Below are positions 7,683 through 32,965 of a stretch of 35,054 bases of DNA, piece by piece. The stretch covers positions 1 through 35,054 of IMG/VR virus record IMGVR_UViG_3300043786_000899; one strand, given 5' to 3'. The translations under genes were made by a program, and so were the position numbers. The DNA is from a virus. Numbering within the stretch: position 1 is the first letter of the stretch; every line of letters starts with the position of its first letter. Below the pieces are notes generated by a model that did not search any database, was not told the origin of the DNA, and saw only the letters and a program-made list of their open reading frames with translations.

Positions 7683-8903
7683 TCAGGAGCCGGTGACCAG
7701 CTTGGCCACGAACTGCGGGTCGTGGTTGGCCAGGCCGAACCGTTGCAGGCCGCGGAACAGGATCGAGTCCCGGGCAAACCCGGCGTGCTCGCTCGCTGCG
7801 ACCTGGAGCCCGTTCCGGTGGGTCACCACGGCCGTGGCCATGCTGAAGTCACCATACAGGGCCAGGGTGCCGGCCGGCAGGCCGAGGACCCGGTAGACCG
7901 GGGCGCCCATCACCACCGGGAGAACCCGGTCGCCGATGGTCGTGGACTGCGTCACGACCGAGGCCTTCATGATGTGGCTCCAGCCCTCGCTCGACACGAC
8001 CCACGCCGTGTTCGAGGCCCGGTTGTCGATCTTGCCGACGAGCTCGGCGAGGTCCGTCGCGTCGTTGTCGGCGCTGGCCTCGACCGTGTTCCCTTCGGTG
8101 ACCTCGTCGACCAGGCCGTCGATCCCCTTGTCGCCGTCACCGTTCAGCCAGACGGAGTCGATCTTCTTGGCCAGGGCCAAGCCGATCCGGCTGGTGAACA
8201 GCGTGGCGAGGTTCACGACCGAGCCGGCGTCGGCGAGGAGCTCGTTCGAGACCTCGACGATACGACCAGCCTTGTAGAGCTGGATCGTCTCCTTCGAGGT
8301 CGCGTACTCCTCGTCCTCGGCGTCGATCAGCTCGTCCACCCAGTCGGCCTCGATCTCGCCGATTTTGGGGACCTCGAAGACGTTCGAGTCGGTCTGGAAC
8401 AGGGTCGCGACCTGGACACCCACCGAGGCGTACGAGAGTACGTCGATGAAGCCCTGGTACAGCTCGGGGCTCACCAGCTCGGCGCCCTTGCCGTCGTAGG
8501 CGCCGGAGCCGGCCGTCAGGCCCATGGCCCGCGCCTCGTCCATCCGGCCGAGGCCGATGGCCCGCAGGAACTGGCCACCCTTGACCGCGTCTTCCTTGTT
8601 GCGGAAGCCGCGGAGGTTGCCGACGACGTGGATCGCCGGGGCCTTCGGCTTGGTCGCCTCGACGGCCGACCGGTGGTCGCTGTCGCTGGTCACGCTGCGA
8701 AGGCTGGCGATCCGGTCGTCGAGCTCGCGCTCCCGCTTGGCGGCGGCGCCGATCTCGTCGGCCTTGGCCGACCGCTCCGCGAGCCGCTCGTCGATCTGGG
8801 CCTTCTCGGCCTCGTCGTTGGGCTCGAGGGTGCGGAGTTCGTCGATCTCCTTGGCGACCACGGAGGCCTCATCCTGAAGCCGGGCGAGCTTGGCGCTGGG
8901 CAT
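7683..8903 (-). CDS. Major capsid protein, HK97 gp5 family
   Basis: I start at MPSAKLARLQ (ATG 8903-8901), which has AAGG at suitable distance upstream; an upstream ATG (MRNMPS) sits too close to that site. The 406-residue protein has an N-terminal coiled-coil, highly charged scaffold-like region (about 1-75, the delta domain) and then a mature part with the HK97-fold features: GLTAGSGAYDGKGAELVSPE with its E-loop start, the FEVPKIGEIEADWVDE segment, KIDSVWLNGDG, and the C-terminal GDFSMATAVVTHRNGLQVAASEHAGFARDSILFRGLQRFG strand set. The delta domain is expected to be removed by the protease encoded upstream. Five genes of a membrane/lysis-like block separate it from that protease. Confidence 0.95.
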   Translation of the reverse strand: MPSAKLARLQDEASVVAKEIDELRTLEPNDEAEKAQIDERLAERSAKADEIGAAAKRERELDDRIASLRSVTSDSDHRSAVEATKPKAPAIHVVGNLRGFRNKEDAVKGGQFLRAIGLGRMDEARAMGLTAGSGAYDGKGAELVSPELYQGFIDVLSYASVGVQVATLFQTDSNVFEVPKIGEIEADWVDELIDAEDEEYATSKETIQLYKAGRIVEVSNELLADAGSVVNLATLFTSRIGLALAKKIDSVWLNGDGDKGIDGLVDEVTEGNTVEASADNDATDLAELVGKIDNRASNTAWVVSSEGWSHIMKASVVTQSTTIGDRVLPVVMGAPVYRVLGLPAGTLALYGDFSMATAVVTHRNGLQVAASEHAGFARDSILFRGLQRFGLANHDPQFVAKLVTGS

Positions 8904-8971
8904 GTTTCTCATCCTTGAGAGTGTGCGGGGGTCCACTGAAACCACCCGCACGATAGGACGAGATCGGCGAC

Positions 8972-9296: not shown

Positions 9297-9545
9297 TCAC
9301 CACCCCCTTCGGTGTTCGACCAGGCGGAACCCGTCGTCGCCGACGCGGGCCTGGGCGCGGGCCTCGACTTCTGCCGGCGGCGGGTCCGCGATCACGGCGA
9401 TCCACAAGAGCCGTTTCGCGGCCCCTACGATCCACGTCAGGACCGGGCGGTCGGTGTGGGGACTCCAGGGCCGACAGGCCGACGAAGCCCACCAGTAGCC
9501 AACGAAGAAGGCGAGGACGAGCGCGGCGGCAGTCTTGCGGGTCAT
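9297..9545 (-). CDS. Small membrane protein, holin or spanin candidate
   Basis: This 82-residue protein has a hydrophobic N-terminal segment (AAALVLAFFVGYWWASSAC) and a second one (VLTWIVGAAKRLLWIAVIA), then a charged C-terminus. The ...SSAC could be a lipobox-like end, but two hydrophobic helices fit a small holin as well. It is coupled to the papain-like gene by ATGA. Size and context make it a lysis-protein candidate; there is no specific family match. Confidence 0.65.
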   Translation of the reverse strand: MTRKTAAALVLAFFVGYWWASSACRPWSPHTDRPVLTWIVGAAKRLLWIAVIADPPPAEVEARAQARVGDDGFRLVEHRRGW

Positions 9546-10660
9546 GGGTTGGCCTGGGTCAGGGTGTCGATCGGGCCGGCGTCGAGCCAGTTCCCGTGAT
9601 GAAGGTCACGCCACTTAAATCCGGTCTTGATGTCCCCGATCGCGTAGGAGTCGTTCTGTCGCAAAATCCTCTCTACGACCTCGCGCGTGGCCCAGAAGCT
9701 GCCGTCGGGCTGATCGGCCGGATACTTGCCGGCGTAGGAGATCCACTTCGTCCCCCAGCTGTTTAAGACCAGGCAGGCGTCCACGGCCCTGACTCCGGGC
9801 GGCGCGTTCTCCTTGAACCTGATCCCGACCAGGCACATTTGGTGCATCCAGGTCCCACTCGGTGCGAGGACCCCCGACTCGTCGGTCCGGCTGGCGAAGC
9901 CCTGGGAGCTGGCGATCGTCACCGGAAAACCGGCGGTCAGGGCCGCCACACACTCGTCCCAGGTGCGAATGGCGACGACGTGGCGGGCCGGGTGTCGCTT
10001 GGCCAGCTCGTCGAGCTTGCCGCCGTCTCCCTGGCCGCCGTTGCCGTACGCGCCCCATTGTTTCGCCCGGTCGGCCGAGTAGACCCGCAGGTCGTGGCCG
10101 CCGATCTCGGTCCGGTAGATCACGCCCCAGTCGCGGACCCACTTGGCCGCCGCGCCGCCGTAGCTGCCGTCCGACCAGCCGCCGACGGCGGCCCGGCCGT
10201 CGCCCGGCTTTCCGCGGGCCTCGACCCGCGAGCCGCCGTAGATCGCCTCGGTGGACGGGACGAGCGGGGGCTCGGCGATCTGGCCGAGATCCCAGGACAG
10301 CGACTCGGAGCACCAAACAGCGTGCATGGCTCCCCACGCGATACAGTCGCCGATCCCCTGCCGCTCACAGACCCACGGCCGGCCGTAGCGGGCCTGGTGA
10401 GCCTTGGCCATCGCCCGATACAGGAACGTGTCCACGCGGGCCGCCTGGGCCATGGCCTCGGGGGCGGCCTGGGCGAAGTAGCGGGCGGGGCCGAGCTCCT
10501 GGAGGAACTCCTCGACGCCTTCCGGGTCGGGGGTCCACCCGTAGCCCGCCCCGGCCGGCGCCGGTGCTGGCCGGCCCATGTTGACGTAGACAAGCGCCGC
10601 CAGCGCGAGCAGGAACACGGCCGCGAACAGCCGCGCGGCGTTGGTCTCAGCGCGTGACAT
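9542..10660 (-). CDS. Membrane-anchored papain-like (C1-type) cysteine peptidase
   Basis: This 372-residue protein has an N-terminal signal-anchor (about residues 10-27, LFAAVFLLALAALVYVNM), a Pro/Ala linker, and a domain with the papain catalytic signature: Q101 of the oxyanion hole and C106 in QGIGDCIAWGAMHAV, H273 in WMHQMCLVGIRF, and N300 in LNSWGTKW (papain NSWG). The order and spacing fit an active C1-like peptidase. It sits in a row of small membrane proteins between the prohead protease and the capsid gene. It could be a protein-degrading lysin, secreted or held in the membrane; a virion role is also possible. The family call is strong and the biological role is inferred. No classical muramidase or amidase was recognised elsewhere. 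Confidence 0.85.
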   Translation of the reverse strand: MSRAETNAARLFAAVFLLALAALVYVNMGRPAPAPAGAGYGWTPDPEGVEEFLQELGPARYFAQAAPEAMAQAARVDTFLYRAMAKAHQARYGRPWVCERQGIGDCIAWGAMHAVWCSESLSWDLGQIAEPPLVPSTEAIYGGSRVEARGKPGDGRAAVGGWSDGSYGGAAAKWVRDWGVIYRTEIGGHDLRVYSADRAKQWGAYGNGGQGDGGKLDELAKRHPARHVVAIRTWDECVAALTAGFPVTIASSQGFASRTDESGVLAPSGTWMHQMCLVGIRFKENAPPGVRAVDACLVLNSWGTKWISYAGKYPADQPDGSFWATREVVERILRQNDSYAIGDIKTGFKWRDLHHGNWLDAGPIDTLTQANP

Positions 10661-11204
10661 TGGCCGCCGCCTCCGAGACCTCGCGGAGCGACTTCACCCA
10701 GGCGGCCCGCTGCTCTGGCGTGATCGGCCCACCGGACACCCCGACGGCCTGCTCGAGGTGCCTGGCGATCGCGTCCCGGGCCGCCGGCTGGCGGGCACCG
10801 ATCGACACCCCCCGGCACCGCATTTCCCGCATCCGCTGCCGGAGGTCGTCGATTGCGACCCCGGTCTTCAGGTAGGGCTCGCCCTGGTCGCCGTCCCAGG
10901 CGATCTCGTCCGCCAGCTCGCCCGTCAGGGCCGAGACGATCGCCGCGTCCTCGGCCCCGGTGGGGCCGGAGAACAATCCGCGAAGGTCGAGCGGCCCCGC
11001 CGGCGCCGGGGGCGTCGGGCCGGGCGTCACTTGCTGGTTCCAGTTGAAGGACACCATCGCCGCGATCAGGAGCGCGGCCGCCGCCATCTGCCGCCAGGAG
11101 ACCTCCGGCCGGGGAAGGTGGGCCGTGAGCTCGCGAATCTTCTGCAACAGGTCGCGGCCGCCCAGGATCAGCGCGGCCGCCACGATCAGGATAACGGTGG
11201 TCAT
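10647..11204 (-). CDS. Two-helix membrane protein of the putative lysis block
   Basis: This 185-residue protein begins with a hydrophobic helix (TTVILIVAAALILGG), has a second near residues 40-55 (MAAAALLIAAMVSFNW), a proline-rich linker (TPGPTPPAPAGP) and a soluble C-terminal domain with a charged helix (DDLRQRMREMRCRG). Its end overlaps the papain-like gene by 14 bases and its start overlaps the previous stop by ATGA, so the genes are co-translated. A partner or regulator of the peptidase, or a holin-like protein, are both possible. No known family was recognised. Confidence 0.65.
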   Translation of the reverse strand: MTTVILIVAAALILGGRDLLQKIRELTAHLPRPEVSWRQMAAAALLIAAMVSFNWNQQVTPGPTPPAPAGPLDLRGLFSGPTGAEDAAIVSALTGELADEIAWDGDQGEPYLKTGVAIDDLRQRMREMRCRGVSIGARQPAARDAIARHLEQAVGVSGGPITPEQRAAWVKSLREVSEAAANVTR

Positions 11205-11578
11205 GCCAAGGCCCTCACCATCGGCAGGAGGATCTCCACGGCCCCGCCGGCCAGGGCCACGATCAGCGAGCGGACGGCGGGCCGGGCGATCAGCCAGACC
11301 GGGTACAGCGCGAGCGGGACCGCCTTGTCGGCGATCGCGTCAAACAACACCCCGGCCGAGTGGACGACGATCTCCTTCTTCTCGGACCCGGTCAGGTGGT
11401 CGAGCGTGTCGAGCGCGTGGATCGCGACCTTGACGAGCGCGAGCAGCAGCTGGCCGAACTCGCCCCACGTCAGGCCGTCGGCCGAGGCGGTGCGGGCCAC
11501 GGCGATGAACGCCTTCACCTTGTCGGCGATGGCCTCGTAATGGTCAGCGGCGGCCAGCGGCCGGTCGGTCACGTTCAT
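11201..11578 (-). CDS. Hydrophobic-tailed protein, holin candidate
   Basis: The start at 11578 (MNVTDRPLAA) is preceded by AGAAGGAAGCC, a usable ribosome binding site, and overlaps the previous TGA as ATGA. The product is 125 residues. It has an N-terminal amphipathic helical half and a C-terminal hydrophobic half (VPLALYPVWLIARPAV then SLIVALAGGAVEILLPMV) that can form one or two membrane segments. Together with the neighbouring membrane genes it forms a likely lysis block. Assignment as a holin rests on hydrophobicity and position only. Confidence 0.6.
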   Translation of the reverse strand: MNVTDRPLAAADHYEAIADKVKAFIAVARTASADGLTWGEFGQLLLALVKVAIHALDTLDHLTGSEKKEIVVHSAGVLFDAIADKAVPLALYPVWLIARPAVRSLIVALAGGAVEILLPMVRALA

Positions 11579-11733
11579 GGCTTCCTTCTCCAGACCTGGC
11601 TCGCGGGGACGACTTGCCGGCGGCGCCGGCGGCACTGTTGGCACTCGACGTACTGGACCTGATGCGGGCCGGCCCGCTTGCTCGAATCGACGCGGCAGCG
11701 GCCGCCGCACTTCGGGCAGGTGCTAACCGGCAT
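11575..11733 (-). CDS. Small zinc-ribbon protein
   Basis: This 52-residue protein starts at MPVSTCPKCGG (ATG 11733) and contains CPKCGGRC and, after about 20 residues, CQQCRRRRRQ, a compact zinc ribbon with a basic tail. It overlaps the end of the protease-HAD gene by 11 bases and the next start by ATGA. It could bind nucleic acid or help an assembly step; nothing more specific is visible. Confidence 0.65.
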   Translation of the reverse strand: MPVSTCPKCGGRCRVDSSKRAGPHQVQYVECQQCRRRRRQVVPASQVWRRKP

Positions 11734-12712
11734 GGGCTCGCATCCTCGCGACGGCGGCCGCCGCGGCGGCCTTGGCCCCCAGGAGCGACCCGCGGAAGAC
11801 CTGGCCGCCACTGTGCGGGACTTCGCAGTCCCGGGCCGTGGCCCGGCTGTCCGGGATCGCTTCGGGGCGGTCGTCGATCCACACGTCGACCTCCAGGCCA
11901 GCGGCCTGGGCCGCGGCCCGCTTCTGGGTCTTGGGGCCGCACAGGATCACCTTGTCGACCGGCAGACCCTGGAACGCGACGAGCAGCTCGCCGCGGTTGG
12001 CGTCGGTGTCCTCGCGGCGAGAAATGCAGAGAATGCGATGGCCGCGGGTCGCAGCGTCCAGAATCCAGGACCGCCACATACCGGGCGCGGCCGAGAACGT
12101 GTCGTCGTAGTCGATCGAAACGGTCAAAGTCTTCTCGGCCGCCAGGGCCACGCCCCGCGCCGCTGCGAAGGCCCGCACGCTCCGCAGCCCGACCGAGGAA
12201 CTCGGATAGGCGGCGTGGGTCACGGGGGACACGTCGAAAAGCGCCGCCTCGCCGATGGTCCGGGTCACGTTGCCGGCCGGGTCCGCGTCCCAGCTTTCGC
12301 CGGCCGGGTCCGAGATCGAGAACGCGAAGGAGCTGCCGTGGATGTACTTGCCGCGGATCAGTGCCAGGACTTCCGCCGTGGTCGGCGTGCCGGCCGGCGG
12401 GGTGGCCCGGAACGCCAGGCCCCGGTCGGTCTCGGAGAGCTCGAGCGTGCCGTTGGTGGTCCGTCCCAGGACGTGGAGGTCGGAATGGTTGAACTTGGCT
12501 ACCACGTCCGCCGGGCCGCGCGGGTCGGTCGGCTTGCGGTCGAGCCACTTCCGGAAGGCCCCGGGCATGAACCGCTCCTTGAAGCCGCCCAGGTCCACGC
12601 TCCAGCTGTTCCACGGCGGCGCCACGCCGGCGATCCGGGGCGGCGCGTCGTCCCGCTCCTCGACCTCGAGGCCGGACTCGGCAAGGGGCAAATAGCGGAT
12701 CTCGGCGTTCAT
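11723..12712 (-). CDS. Prohead protease fused to a HAD-like phosphatase domain
   Basis: This 329-residue protein has two parts. Residues 1-180 match HK97-type prohead proteases: FMPGAF (48-53), FNHSD with putative catalytic H76, the LELSETDRGLAF strand, GSSFAFS with putative catalytic S128, and DVSPVTHAAYP (160-170). This part should cleave the capsid delta domain and scaffold. Residues about 195-300 carry all four HAD-superfamily motifs: DYDDT (D201, D203), LCIS (S231), a lysine in GPKTQKR (261-264) and WIDDRPEA (D280, D281). Such a HAD domain resembles small phage or host nucleotidase/phosphatase proteins. Typical prohead proteases end after the first domain, so the fusion is unusual; it is a single uninterrupted frame. 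The start overlaps the portal stop by ATGA. Confidence 0.9.
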   Translation of the reverse strand: MNAEIRYLPLAESGLEVEERDDAPPRIAGVAPPWNSWSVDLGGFKERFMPGAFRKWLDRKPTDPRGPADVVAKFNHSDLHVLGRTTNGTLELSETDRGLAFRATPPAGTPTTAEVLALIRGKYIHGSSFAFSISDPAGESWDADPAGNVTRTIGEAALFDVSPVTHAAYPSSSVGLRSVRAFAAARGVALAAEKTLTVSIDYDDTFSAAPGMWRSWILDAATRGHRILCISRREDTDANRGELLVAFQGLPVDKVILCGPKTQKRAAAQAAGLEVDVWIDDRPEAIPDSRATARDCEVPHSGGQVFRGSLLGAKAAAAAAVARMRAHAG

Positions 12713-14316
12713 TCGTCGTCCTCCATGTCTATCGGCTCGGCCGACAGTTCCGACACTCGCTTCCCGACCAGGAGCTCGGTCGGGCGACCGTCCACCGTGA
12801 TCCGCACCAGCGCGGCCGGCGCGGCCTCGCTGGCATCGATCGCGAAGGGGCTCCCCGCGACCCCGAGGAGACCCGAGACCATCAGATGCTCGATCACCCC
12901 CTCTCCGTCGGCCCAGTACACGGTCTGGCCCTCGCGAAAGCCGCCGGCCTCCGGGACGCCTTCGCCCTGGCCGGCCGGCTCGTCCGCGTCCGGCTCGTCG
13001 TCAGCCGGCGGCTCGCCTTCGGCCGGCGCCGCGGCGGCCGAGGCCGCGGCGTTGGCCAGCGTCGAGAAGCCCAGCTGCATGTAGGTCTCGTCCGCGGCCG
13101 GGTCGTCGACCAGGTCGAAGTCCTCGAGGTCGCGGAGCTCGTTCGGCTTTAGCGCCCCCATGTTGAACATGGCCTGGTAGAGCGCCACGCGGCTGGTCGT
13201 GTCGCCCCGCAAGATCCCGCGATTGTCGAACCGCGAGTACACGTCCTCGCCGTAGACCGGCTGGATGGCCATGTCGATCGGGCCTTCCATTCGCCGCATC
13301 CAGGGAAGGAGCGTCCAGGTCTGGGCGAAGATGCCCTCTTGCTCGACCGTGGCCCACCGGGCCATCTTGGCGTCACCCAGCAGCGTGGACGGAACACCCC
13401 AGCACCGGCACACGTCGGGAAGGATCGCGTCCCGCAGTTCCTGGAACTGGTTGGCCTCCATCGAGTTGCTCTCGATCGGCTTCAGGCGGGTCTTCTTGGG
13501 GAGGACCGCCGTCTTCCCCCGGTTGTTGGCGCCGCCGTAGACCTCGCGGAGAGCCTCGCGGAGAGCCACGACCGCCTCGTCGGGGATCTTCTCGTCGGTC
13601 TCTAGCACCATGTCGGGCCGGGCCGAGTTGTCCCAGAAGGACGTGGCCGCGGCGTCGAGCTTGCGGGCCAGGGCGACCGAGGTCTCGCACAGTTCGGCCG
13701 GCGGCATCCCCACCAGGCCATTGTCCGAGAGCCACCGCCAGTGCCAGACCTCGCGCTGGTCGAGCTCTTCCCACCGGCCGGAGTTGTTAAAGAACTCGTA
13801 CCAGATCGTGTAGTCCGCGTTCCGGTGGATCCGGACGCGGGTCGGGTGCATGGGCCGCAGCTCGGAGCACCAGCCGCGCTCGCCGGGGATCACCCGGGCG
13901 AAGGCGTTGCCGTGGAGCGCGGTCCAGTAGGCAATGAGCTGGTAGAAGTCGTAGGAGCTCTGCCAGGGGTTGGGCCGCTTGCGGATCGTGTAGGAGCAGT
14001 GAAGGACCGCGTCGACCTTGCGTCCGCTCGGCAGCGTCCGCATCAGGTAGACCGGCATGATGGCGACGGCCTGGGCGATCCAGCGGACCACCCCCAGGAT
14101 CGAGGTCACCCGGATGGCCTCGGCCGGCCCGATGGCCGATGCCGAGACGTTGGTCCACAGGTCGCCGGAGATCCCAGACCACCCGACGGCGGCGCCGGCC
14201 CGTACGTCGATCACCCGCGCCCGCGGCATCGCGGCCCGGCGGGTCGAAGGGGCACGGGGCGCGGCCGTACGCTTACGCGGGGCCGCCTTCTTCGCGGGAG
14301 CCTTGCGGGGGGGCAT
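12709..14316 (-). CDS. Portal protein, HK97 family
   Basis: This 535-residue protein forms the dodecameric portal through which DNA is packaged. It shows the family features: a basic N-terminal tail rich in Lys, Ala and Pro (1-35), VVRWIAQAVAIMPVYLM, PNPWQSSYDFYQLIAYWTALHGNAFARVI, a clip/stem segment with VGMPPAE, the FQELRDAILPDVCRCWGVPSTLLGD stretch, and a C-terminal Ala/Glu/Pro-rich low-complexity part followed by a small beta-rich extension that ends in acidic residues. The start has no clear Shine-Dalgarno sequence and sits behind a GTTCACGG leader. ATG at 30 (MPRARVID) is a possible alternative. Confidence 0.93.
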   Translation of the reverse strand: MPPRKAPAKKAAPRKRTAAPRAPSTRRAAMPRARVIDVRAGAAVGWSGISGDLWTNVSASAIGPAEAIRVTSILGVVRWIAQAVAIMPVYLMRTLPSGRKVDAVLHCSYTIRKRPNPWQSSYDFYQLIAYWTALHGNAFARVIPGERGWCSELRPMHPTRVRIHRNADYTIWYEFFNNSGRWEELDQREVWHWRWLSDNGLVGMPPAELCETSVALARKLDAAATSFWDNSARPDMVLETDEKIPDEAVVALREALREVYGGANNRGKTAVLPKKTRLKPIESNSMEANQFQELRDAILPDVCRCWGVPSTLLGDAKMARWATVEQEGIFAQTWTLLPWMRRMEGPIDMAIQPVYGEDVYSRFDNRGILRGDTTSRVALYQAMFNMGALKPNELRDLEDFDLVDDPAADETYMQLGFSTLANAAASAAAAPAEGEPPADDEPDADEPAGQGEGVPEAGGFREGQTVYWADGEGVIEHLMVSGLLGVAGSPFAIDASEAAPAALVRITVDGRPTELLVGKRVSELSAEPIDMEDDE

Positions 14317-14358: not shown

Positions 14359-15999
14359 TCACACCACCCGGATCTTCCAATCGTCCAGGCCCATGTCGGC
14401 GGCGTCGTCGGTGCTGGCCAGGGCCAGCGCGTTGACCAGGGCCGCGATCCCGTCGATCTTCTCGGTGGACTTCGACTTGTCCGGCTTGATCATGCCGGTC
14501 GCGTCCTGGTACACGGCCACATTGTTGGCGTTCCACTGGGCCACCGGGTTGGCCCCGTGCCGGAGCCGCTTCTCCACGATCAGCGCTTCGAGCAGCTTAC
14601 AAGGGGAGTTTAGGTACGCGGTCCGCTGGGGGATGTCGCGGACCTTGATTCCCTCCCGCTGGAGCAGCGTCTCGAGCGGCCCGGCCTGCCACGGGTCGCA
14701 GCCGACCTCCCGGATTTCGTGGGTCTCGCCGTATTCGATGATCGATCGAGCGACCGCCTCGTGGTCGAGCCGGCCGCCGTCGGTCACGGTCACCCAGCCC
14801 TCCCGGATCCAGTCGTCGTACGGGATCCGGTCTTTCTTGACCCGGTCGGGCACGGTGTCCCGCGGGACGAAGTACTTCCACTCGGCGGCATAGCTGCCGT
14901 CCGACTCGCGGAATAGGAAACAGACTGCCGTCATGTCGAGGTTCGACGCGAGGTCCACCCCGACCCAGCAGGCGCGGCCGGCCGTCGGCTCGAGCGGGCC
15001 GGAGCCGCACGCGGGCCAGTCGATCTGCCCGATGAACCAGCGCGAGTCGGCGGCCTGCCAAACGTTTAGCGAGTAGCGGAGGAACTTCGACATCTTCCGT
15101 GGGTCGGTCGTCGCGTCCTGGAAGTCGGCCGCGAACTCGTCCTCGGGGAACGCCACGCCCATAGACGGGTTTGCCTTCCGCCAGACGACCGGGTCGGCGT
15201 AGTCGTCGGCCTCGGGATCGGCCGCGTAGATCAGCCCGTAAAAGGTCGGGTTGGCCTGGGGGTTCTTGATCACGAGCTCGCAGTCCTGCCACCACCGCCA
15301 GCCGATCCCGTTCCGGTCCGAGCCCGCCGTCGAGATCGAGATCACCAGGCCGTTCGCCGTGCCACGGGTCGCGTAGATCAAGGCGTCGACCAGGTCGGGC
15401 TTCGGGAAACTGTGGATCTCGTCCAGGATCACCGAGCCGTTCAGACCTTCATTTCGCCACGAGTCGGACGACAGGCAGCGGATCTCCTTGCCGGTCTCCT
15501 TGTTGCGGATGATGCTCCGCGAGTCGACGACCTCGAGCAGCTTCGACAGCTTCGGGCTCGCCTCCACCGACTGCCGGACCATGCGGTACATGGTCCGCGC
15601 CTGGAGCCGGTCATTCGCAGCGAGGAACACGTCCTGGGCCGGGGCGTGGCACGTCAGCATGTACTGGGCGAGCTGCGACATCAGGCTGGACTTGCGGTTC
15701 TTCTTGGGGACGAAGATCCCGCATCGCTTGTATCGGAGACGGCCGTCGGGCCGCCGCCAGCCGAAGAGCGGCCGGAGGACTTGGTCTCGCTGCCAGTCGA
15801 TCAGCTTGATCCGCTGGGGCTCGCCGCCGCGCTCGTCGGGGTGACGACAGAGGGTCTCGATGAACCGGACCGGCGCTTCCGCCGCGGCCGAGTCCCACTC
15901 GTAGCCCGGGACGTATTCCGGCCGCTTCTCCGGATCAGTTGCGACGGATCGAGAGACTGCGGAGGACCTGGTCCTCTTCGTCGCCTTCTTCTTGGCCAT
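14359..15999 (-). CDS. terL: Terminase large subunit
   Basis: This 546-residue ATPase-nuclease drives DNA packaging. The ATPase part has a deviant Walker A (PKKNRKSS, about 98-105), Walker B with catalytic Glu (ILDEIH, 191-196) and the coupling motif SISTAG (about 221-226). The nuclease part shows acidic metal-binding residues in VGVDLASNLD (D349) and EVGCDPWQ (D434) and a third near KSTEKIDGIAALVNAL. The architecture matches the HK97-type large subunit with an N-terminal basic region (KKKATKRT). It overlaps the small subunit by 65 bases in another frame, a common coupling. Confidence 0.95.
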   Translation of the reverse strand: MAKKKATKRTRSSAVSRSVATDPEKRPEYVPGYEWDSAAAEAPVRFIETLCRHPDERGGEPQRIKLIDWQRDQVLRPLFGWRRPDGRLRYKRCGIFVPKKNRKSSLMSQLAQYMLTCHAPAQDVFLAANDRLQARTMYRMVRQSVEASPKLSKLLEVVDSRSIIRNKETGKEIRCLSSDSWRNEGLNGSVILDEIHSFPKPDLVDALIYATRGTANGLVISISTAGSDRNGIGWRWWQDCELVIKNPQANPTFYGLIYAADPEADDYADPVVWRKANPSMGVAFPEDEFAADFQDATTDPRKMSKFLRYSLNVWQAADSRWFIGQIDWPACGSGPLEPTAGRACWVGVDLASNLDMTAVCFLFRESDGSYAAEWKYFVPRDTVPDRVKKDRIPYDDWIREGWVTVTDGGRLDHEAVARSIIEYGETHEIREVGCDPWQAGPLETLLQREGIKVRDIPQRTAYLNSPCKLLEALIVEKRLRHGANPVAQWNANNVAVYQDATGMIKPDKSKSTEKIDGIAALVNALALASTDDAADMGLDDWKIRVV

Positions 16000-31541: not shown

Positions 31542-31967
31542 TTACCCCCCGAGATCCTCGACCTCGGCCAGGCAGGCCGCGTACCCCGCCAGATCGATTG
31601 GCGTATCGGCGCTCTTGGCCGCGCCCTGGTGTCGGGCGAGCTTGTCCAGGATCATGATCTGGGCCCAGTCGGCGAGCGTCAGCGGCTCGCGCAACTTGTG
31701 GGCGAAGATCGCGTTCACCGCGGCCACCGTCTTGGCGAAGTGTTCCGCCGGCGGGCCGTAGGTTCCCCGCCGCTGGCGGACCGTCCGCTGGGCCTCCTCG
31801 AGCAGCTGCTCGGCCTTCGTGTCTGCCATGGCTTTCCTCTCGGCTCGGATCGTGTCGATCAAATGCACGACCCAGGAGGCTAGCGTCCCGCTGGTCCCAG
31901 TCCAGGCGCCGGAGAACCGCCGCGCCGCCCGCTCGGCCTCGGCGATCTGCTCGTCCGACAGGATCAC
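31542..31967 (-). CDS. DUF6378-like protein
   Basis: This 141-residue protein starts at GTG 31967, overlapping the upstream stop as GTGA. After a short helical N-terminus it has LLEEAQRTVRQRRGTYGPPAEHFAKTVAAVNAIF and TLADWAQIMILDKLARHQG...TPIDLAGYAACL, the pattern of the DUF6378 family found in many phages. The family resembles nucleotide-related MazG-like helical proteins, but its role is not established. Confidence 0.8.
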   Translation of the reverse strand: MILSDEQIAEAERAARRFSGAWTGTSGTLASWVVHLIDTIRAERKAMADTKAEQLLEEAQRTVRQRRGTYGPPAEHFAKTVAAVNAIFAHKLREPLTLADWAQIMILDKLARHQGAAKSADTPIDLAGYAACLAEVEDLGG

Positions 31968-32965
31968 GAGCTCCTCACCTTGCCGTCGGCCGTGATCCGC
32001 AGGTTCTCCACGTCGAACTCGCCGCCGTCGTGAACCGTGGCCACGGCGAAGCCCCAGTTCCAGCGGTTGATCCGTGCATACTCCGGGGTCATGTCACACA
32101 GGCAACCGGTCGACCAACAAAACGTCTCGTGGTGCCACATGTCCGACTCCGCGTGGCCGCTCGAACGGTGCGAGTGACCGACCAGCACCGTGGAGAGCGT
32201 TCGCATGAAGGCGCCGCGGGCCGGGTTCACCGGCGCCGAGACCCCCTTCGGAAGTTCGTGGCCGTGGAGGATCGGCAGCTTCCCCGCCAGGATCGGCCGC
32301 TGGTCCTCGACCAGGTCGATGTCATGCTTGTCCAGGTCGAGCCAGGCCTGGAGCGACATCCGCCGCTCCTTCGACAGTTCCGGGGCGTGCTGCCAAATGT
32401 AATGCTGCCACCGCTCCTCGTGGTTCCCGGCCTTGTAGATGATCGGGATCTTCGGGAACGTCTCGCGGATCCAGCCCACGAAGTCGCGGACCGCCTCGAG
32501 CTCGCCGCTGAAGTCGCGCTGTTTCGGATCTTTGGTCCAGCGGCTGATCGTGTAGAAGTCCGCCATGTCGCCATTGAGGACCAGGGCGTCGATCCCGGTC
32601 TCGCCCAGGTGATCGACCGCGGCCCGGACCGCGATGTCCGCGTGATACGGGACGTGACAATCCGACAGGATCCCGACGCGGCCGGTGACCTCGAGGCGGT
32701 ACGGCGACCACGGCCGGGCGATCGACGGCGGTAGCGTGTAGTTGACGCCGGCCAGCCGCGGCTCGCGCGCGGCCACGGCCTTGGTCGAGCGCCGGTTGTG
32801 GTTGCCGTTTTGCCCGAACTGGCGATTGATCCGCTTCCGGGCCTGTTCAATCGTCAGGGCGCCGTTAGATTCCTCGACCAGCATCCGCGCCAGGCCGCGG
32901 GCGGGATGGTCTGGGTTCTCGCGGCACAGACGGCGGGCCATCGCCGTGATCGGGTCGCCTGCCAT
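31964..32965 (-). CDS. Calcineurin-like metallophosphoesterase
   Basis: This 333-residue protein has all metal-ligand motifs of the fold: SDCHVPYHAD (D102, H104), NGDMAD (D133), AGNHEERW (N181, H182), ILHGHEL and VLVGHSHR. An N-terminal segment (1-75) is helical with a HTH-like and basic part (QARKRINRQFGQNGNHNRR), possibly for nucleic-acid binding. It may act as a nuclease or phosphatase in phage DNA or RNA metabolism. It has a GGAGG site before its ATG. Confidence 0.9.
   Translation of the reverse strand: MAGDPITAMARRLCRENPDHPARGLARMLVEESNGALTIEQARKRINRQFGQNGNHNRRSTKAVAAREPRLAGVNYTLPPSIARPWSPYRLEVTGRVGILSDCHVPYHADIAVRAAVDHLGETGIDALVLNGDMADFYTISRWTKDPKQRDFSGELEAVRDFVGWIRETFPKIPIIYKAGNHEERWQHYIWQHAPELSKERRMSLQAWLDLDKHDIDLVEDQRPILAGKLPILHGHELPKGVSAPVNPARGAFMRTLSTVLVGHSHRSSGHAESDMWHHETFCWSTGCLCDMTPEYARINRWNWGFAVATVHDGGEFDVENLRITADGKVRSS

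Follow-up and report, generated by a model that had tools for sequence, protein, structure and literature searches.

The locus raises the question of why a phage prohead protease should be made as one protein with a HAD-type phosphatase domain. The window analysed here is the whole 35,054-nucleotide stretch of IMG/VR virus record IMGVR_UViG_3300043786_000899. The gene order in it is terminase, portal and protease-HAD, with an HK97-type capsid gene downstream, so that the fusion gene is located between the portal and major capsid protein genes, about 2.8 kb from the latter. The features are as follows.

11723-12712, minus strand: protease-HAD fusion gene, 329 aa; starts with ATG, with a 4-base overlap with the portal stop
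12179-12667, minus strand: prohead serine protease domain (Peptidase_S78), residues 16-178
12140-12178, minus strand: protease/HAD linker, residues 179-191, median dN/dS 0.67
11843-12139, minus strand: capless HAD phosphatase cassette, residues 192-290, catalytic residues intact
11732-11785, minus strand: Ala/Arg-rich C-terminal helix, residues 310-327, conserved behind the HAD in fusions
12709-14316, minus strand: portal protein gene; its counterpart in another lineage bears a C-terminal HAD
14359-15999, minus strand: terminase large subunit gene (Pfam/PHROG profile searches)
7683-8951, minus strand: major capsid protein gene (Phage_capsid, HK97 type)

Three ORFs of 169, 185 and 372 aa at 9542-11710 (minus strand) separate the protease from the capsid gene, and none of them had a confident Pfam or PHROG match. 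The same phage also has a calcineurin-like phosphoesterase gene at 31964-32965 on the minus strand (Metallophos, E 6e-6).

An HMM search with the two halves upheld the first-pass annotation in its assignment of the N-terminal half to the HK97-type prohead proteases. Residues 16-178 matched PF04586 Peptidase_S78 in Pfam (E 4.2e-29; 102 bits against a cut-off of 21; profile positions 4-158 of 165), and the half also matched phrog_80, head maturation protease, in PHROG (E 2e-35). The catalytic H76 and S128 were invariant in an alignment of 35 diverse fusions, and residues 1-167 of a full-length AlphaFold model had the fold of the T4 gp21 protease (Z 10.3). The fusion thus agrees with this protease type in profile, in the invariant His and Ser and in the gene order terminase, portal, protease, capsid protein. 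It differs by the HAD domain, which adds about 100 residues between the core and the C-terminal tail, with a total of 329 aa as compared to about 200-213 aa in unfused annotated relatives. Residues 284-312 were modelled at a pLDDT below 50, followed by the helix at residues 310-327. Judged by HAD-less relatives, which also bear the tail, this helix is a part of the protease rather than of the HAD; in the HAD-less alleles of a related group it was found at the helix-equivalent position.

The frame was stop-free in the translation of the window and open to 329 aa, with neither a frameshift nor a stop between the halves. That this is a true in-frame fusion, as had been proposed, was confirmed in IMG/VR. 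Two scans with the whole protein and the HAD half as queries gave more than 100 loci. Among the ORFs first fetched, 117 had both halves in one frame and the protease-only cases were all cut by a contig end; the ORFs that were neither cut in this way nor plainly stand-alone had both halves in one frame. After removal of identical proteins, 98 distinct complete protease-HAD proteins were obtained. An assembly artefact or a chance join of two genes would have to account for these 98 intact fusions from many independent metagenomes, all with stop-free ORFs; its probability is negligible, and the artefact or frameshift reading was rejected on these grounds.

With a HAD profile at least 528 confirmed HAD relatives were detected, and the family is therefore common in metagenomic phages. 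In INPHARED (50,697 phage records), two different queries gave no match covering 80% of the fused protein, and no cultured phage with the protease-HAD fusion was found among these records. The HAD relatives in INPHARED were, among the matches listed, stand-alone or unannotated. Stand-alone relatives are present in many cultured phages, and where examined they were located outside head operons, in non-structural regions, e.g. near DNA polymerase; the domain can therefore function without the head. The literature searched for HAD together with prohead protease, portal or XkdF did not describe the fusion, in line with the earlier statement that no such fusion was known. When 84,980 genomes were scanned, 9 HAD loci were detected, with one clear head-operon case (L133), a contig of a Planctomycetota MAG in which the HAD is upstream of the protease and adjoins it, and is not within it. 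L133 is identical to the IMG/VR contig L208, so that the two represent a single phage contig and can be assigned to a host only weakly. Both L133 and another head-operon HAD contig, L138, were found in Planctomycetota MAG bins, a weak hint that the portal-HAD lineage infects this phylum.

Residues 192-290 matched phrog_4919 and phrog_4256, both of 'unknown function', with E about 1e-15 (PHROG), and both profiles were matched by all 36 HAD members tested. The first-pass annotation had placed a HAD domain with four motifs at residues 195-300. The motifs were all found intact, and the boundaries had to be corrected, as the HAD proper spans residues 192-290. Motif I is D201/D203/T205 (DYDDT), motif II S231-x-R233, motif III K264 and motif IV D280/D281 (WIDD). 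D201, D203, T205, Ser or Thr at 231, K264, D280 and D281 were kept in 262 of 262 fused copies (189 fused to the protease and 73 to the portal), and R233 was invariant when fused and stand-alone members were aligned together. The median pairwise dN/dS was 0.11 for the protease, 0.23 for the HAD and 0.67 for the linker; by this measure the HAD part of the fusion is under purifying selection and the linker under relaxed selection. The invariant motifs and the dN/dS, taken with the structural model described below, make it very probable that the HAD domain acts as an enzyme. A role without catalysis, as a spacer or oligomerisation module of the protease or portal, would fit the placement of the HAD between protease core and tail, and enzyme folds are at times reused structurally. 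With the nucleophile, the acid/base, the Thr, the Ser/Thr, the Lys and both motif IV Asp residues kept in every fusion, and with HAD-less alleles in existence, we consider such a role very improbable.

Structure prediction gave the expected HAD fold, with a pLDDT of 91.1 and a pTM of 0.82 for a model of the HAD alone. Its best PDB match was the 3'-phosphatase of T4 Pnkp (Z 10.3 over 98 residues, rmsd 2.9; entries 5uj0 and 1rrc), by a narrow margin over the next families at Z 8 to 9.4; AphA and other HAD phosphatases ranked behind it at Z 8 to 9. In total 36 PDB chains had Z of 8 or higher and the top rows were mostly HAD phosphatases, as expected for the Rossmann-like HAD fold. In the full-length model, residues 192-289 likewise matched T4 Pnkp (Z 9.8). 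In sequence the comparison was not significant: hhalign of the HAD against T4 Pnkp aligned motif II only (E 0.068, probability 0.8 percent). Pfam and NCBIfam searches gave chance-level matches only and no family for the HAD, and a PDB sequence search with a single HAD sequence gave nothing. With a HAD profile a designed protein ranked first in the PDB (E 7e-5), and the matches to class B acid phosphatases were at E 0.24 or weaker. The HAD thus shares with T4 polynucleotide kinase/phosphatase (pseT) its fold and the motif order D-x-D-x-T, [S/T]-x-R, K, D-D. It differs in being a cassette without the kinase domain and without significant sequence similarity, joined to head proteins. From the fold and the [S/T]-x-R of motif II, the chemistry would most likely be Mg-dependent removal of phosphate from a nucleic-acid end or a small nucleotide, as in T4 Pnkp. 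This is the weakest step of the explanation, and as the tie to Pnkp is without sequence confirmation, we treat the substrate as no more than a lead.

Close HAD-plus relatives (L181, L320-L327) were found for one group of unfused proteases (L296, L305-L319). The protease core of L181 (HAD-plus) was 98.2% identical to that of L313/L314 (HAD-minus), and the DNA identity was high on both sides of the insert, with the HAD-plus allele longer by 291 bases. The insert is positioned between RSLxAW and the tail AADxRRRWSYALTAAAARLVSARLKSNAPRIK, which is common to both alleles. No HAD was found elsewhere on the HAD-minus contigs, which are up to 36.5 kb long and may be incomplete. Because of these near-identical HAD-minus alleles, the HAD looks dispensable for capsid maturation, and the shared position of the tail argues that it must stay C-terminal.

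We then found the same HAD on a second head protein. The HAD of L133 as scan query gave 80 loci, and domain mapping of the fetched loci identified HAD fused to the C-terminus of the portal in 73 ORFs and to the protease in 183 ORFs, counts that include some contigs fetched twice. The two fusions were mutually exclusive, as no locus was seen with both: the arrangement was either terL, portal, protease-HAD, capsid or terL, portal-HAD, protease, capsid. In the HAD tree the fused copies formed one clade apart from the stand-alone copies (SH-aLRT 100), with the portal-borne copies as one clade (SH-aLRT 99). In the protease tree the portal-HAD phages formed their own clade, and unfused lineages lay between it and the protease-HAD phages. 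The presence of the HAD required five changes on the best protease tree, of which well-supported branches force three. As the fused HADs are one clade and their proteases are not sisters, the module appears from these trees to have moved between genes and between lineages. In two pairs of loci (L061/L071 and L067/L076) near-identical HADs are joined to protease domains that clearly differ, which points to recombinational domain exchange. The earlier reading of the locus is partly supported, and the optional nature of the cassette and its occurrence on the portal are added to it here.

The suggestion that the HAD might be a free enzyme expressed with the protease was not borne out. An ATG in the linker was present in 20 of the 98 fusions, and any start codon with a loose SD-like string in 36 of them; with neither a conserved start nor a conserved ribosome-binding site, a separate HAD protein from an internal start was rejected. 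A related explanation is that the fusion is an expression device only, by which a late cytosolic HAD is freed by proteolysis with no tie to the capsid. The many cultured phages with stand-alone relatives and the flexible linker under relaxed selection are consistent with it. We nevertheless judge it unlikely, as no internal start is conserved, the insert lies upstream of the conserved protease tail and is not an adjacent gene, and among the head fusions found the HAD recurs on portal and protease only.

Other C-terminal extensions were found in the same slots of related loci:

L338, 968-2927: portal with an ART-PolyVal ADP-ribosyltransferase extension (E 2e-15)
L138, 2105-4372: portal with an extension containing a HEMGH metallopeptidase-like motif
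L367, 923-2906: portal with an extension weakly matching MuF
L298, 2790-4068: protease with an extension weakly matching LPD22

These four look like exchangeable cargo cassettes. On some portals (L247, L221 and L239) the HAD is followed by a domain resembling Hva1_TUDOR (PF11160), which the L247 copy matched with E 1e-5. An unnamed module (KHDxxLPK..., AMxxMGY or similar, after a Gly-rich linker) was found on the portals of L015 and L228 and on the proteases of L330, L338 and L351; the L330 copy had no Pfam match. The Pfam names ART-PolyVal and LPD22 are derived from polyvalent proteins, for which packaging and injection have been proposed (PMC5512222). Nudix domains have been reported on MuF, portal and head serine peptidase (PMC9503650). 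Enzyme cargo on head proteins is already known as a theme: Nudix, 2H, inorganic pyrophosphatase and ADP-ribosyltransferase domains are likewise enzyme cassettes on portal, MuF or head peptidase, likewise proposed to be packaged and injected, and HAD is not among the domains named in the passages considered (PMC9503650, PMC5512222). Unlike the fusions described there, the HAD has presence/absence alleles and switches between protease and portal. As far as our searches reach, HAD as head-protein cargo, the alternation between protease and portal and the near-identical alleles with and without the domain have not been described.

The C-termini of portals face the capsid interior in several phages, and an enzyme fused to the portal or to the protease would be enclosed in the prohead. 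We consider, with a little better than even confidence, that the HAD serves as an accessory phosphatase which can be exchanged and which enters the procapsid attached to one of the proteins assembling there, probably as virion cargo. The evidence on which this explanation is built is drawn from sequence: the fusion is conserved, its active-site residues are in place, the HAD is under purifying selection, alleles without it exist, and it recurs on a second head protein. As an optional and apparently active HAD occurs on exactly these two proteins, the simplest account is that the head interior is the point. In the lineage of the window the HAD is inserted between the catalytic core of an HK97-type protease and its C-terminal tail, and in a second lineage it is attached to the portal C-terminus. 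The protease would bring several dozen HAD copies into the prohead; HK97 Prohead I contains about 60 proteases and 12 portals (PMC12749128). The flexible linker would be cut while the protease digests the scaffold and itself, and the compact HAD would remain in the head, where it may act or from which it may enter the next host with the DNA.

Since HK97-type proteases usually leave the head or digest themselves, the HAD may also be lost before packaging ends. Alternatively, it could serve head assembly or DNA packaging, for instance by trimming 3'-phosphates or nucleotides, and be discarded with the protease and never delivered. The presence of the HAD on two prohead proteins within the head operon, the resemblance to T4 Pnkp as a nucleic-acid end phosphatase and the normal exit of the protease from the particle all speak for such a role. 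We regard it as rather unlikely, because packaging appears not to need the HAD in the near-identical HAD-minus proteases, and the stand-alone relatives are outside head operons where examined. Among the fates of a capsid-borne phosphatase, delivery to the host is favoured because of the company the HAD keeps. In a broader form, which we put forward as a tentative possibility, the C-termini of portal and protease in this group of uncultivated phages would be two interchangeable interior slots, filled by recombination from a shared pool of enzymes (HAD, ADP-ribosyltransferase and others), phages would differ by their cargo, and the HAD would be injected with the genome and dephosphorylate damaged RNA or DNA ends or nucleotide alarm signals early in infection.

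If the HAD is cargo, the cassette between protease core and tail would show how an enzyme can be loaded into heads of the HK97 type by natural, genetically encoded means. A role would also be suggested for phrog_4919 and phrog_4256, small proteins annotated without function in many laboratory coliphages. The matched HAD-plus and HAD-minus alleles, with little other difference in the protease gene, make the cargo question directly testable. Additionally, several viral BFVD proteins labelled XkdF, which is another prohead protease family, or Prohead protease matched the HAD model with E 4e-4 and weaker, and these are possible HAD fusions to a third type of head gene.
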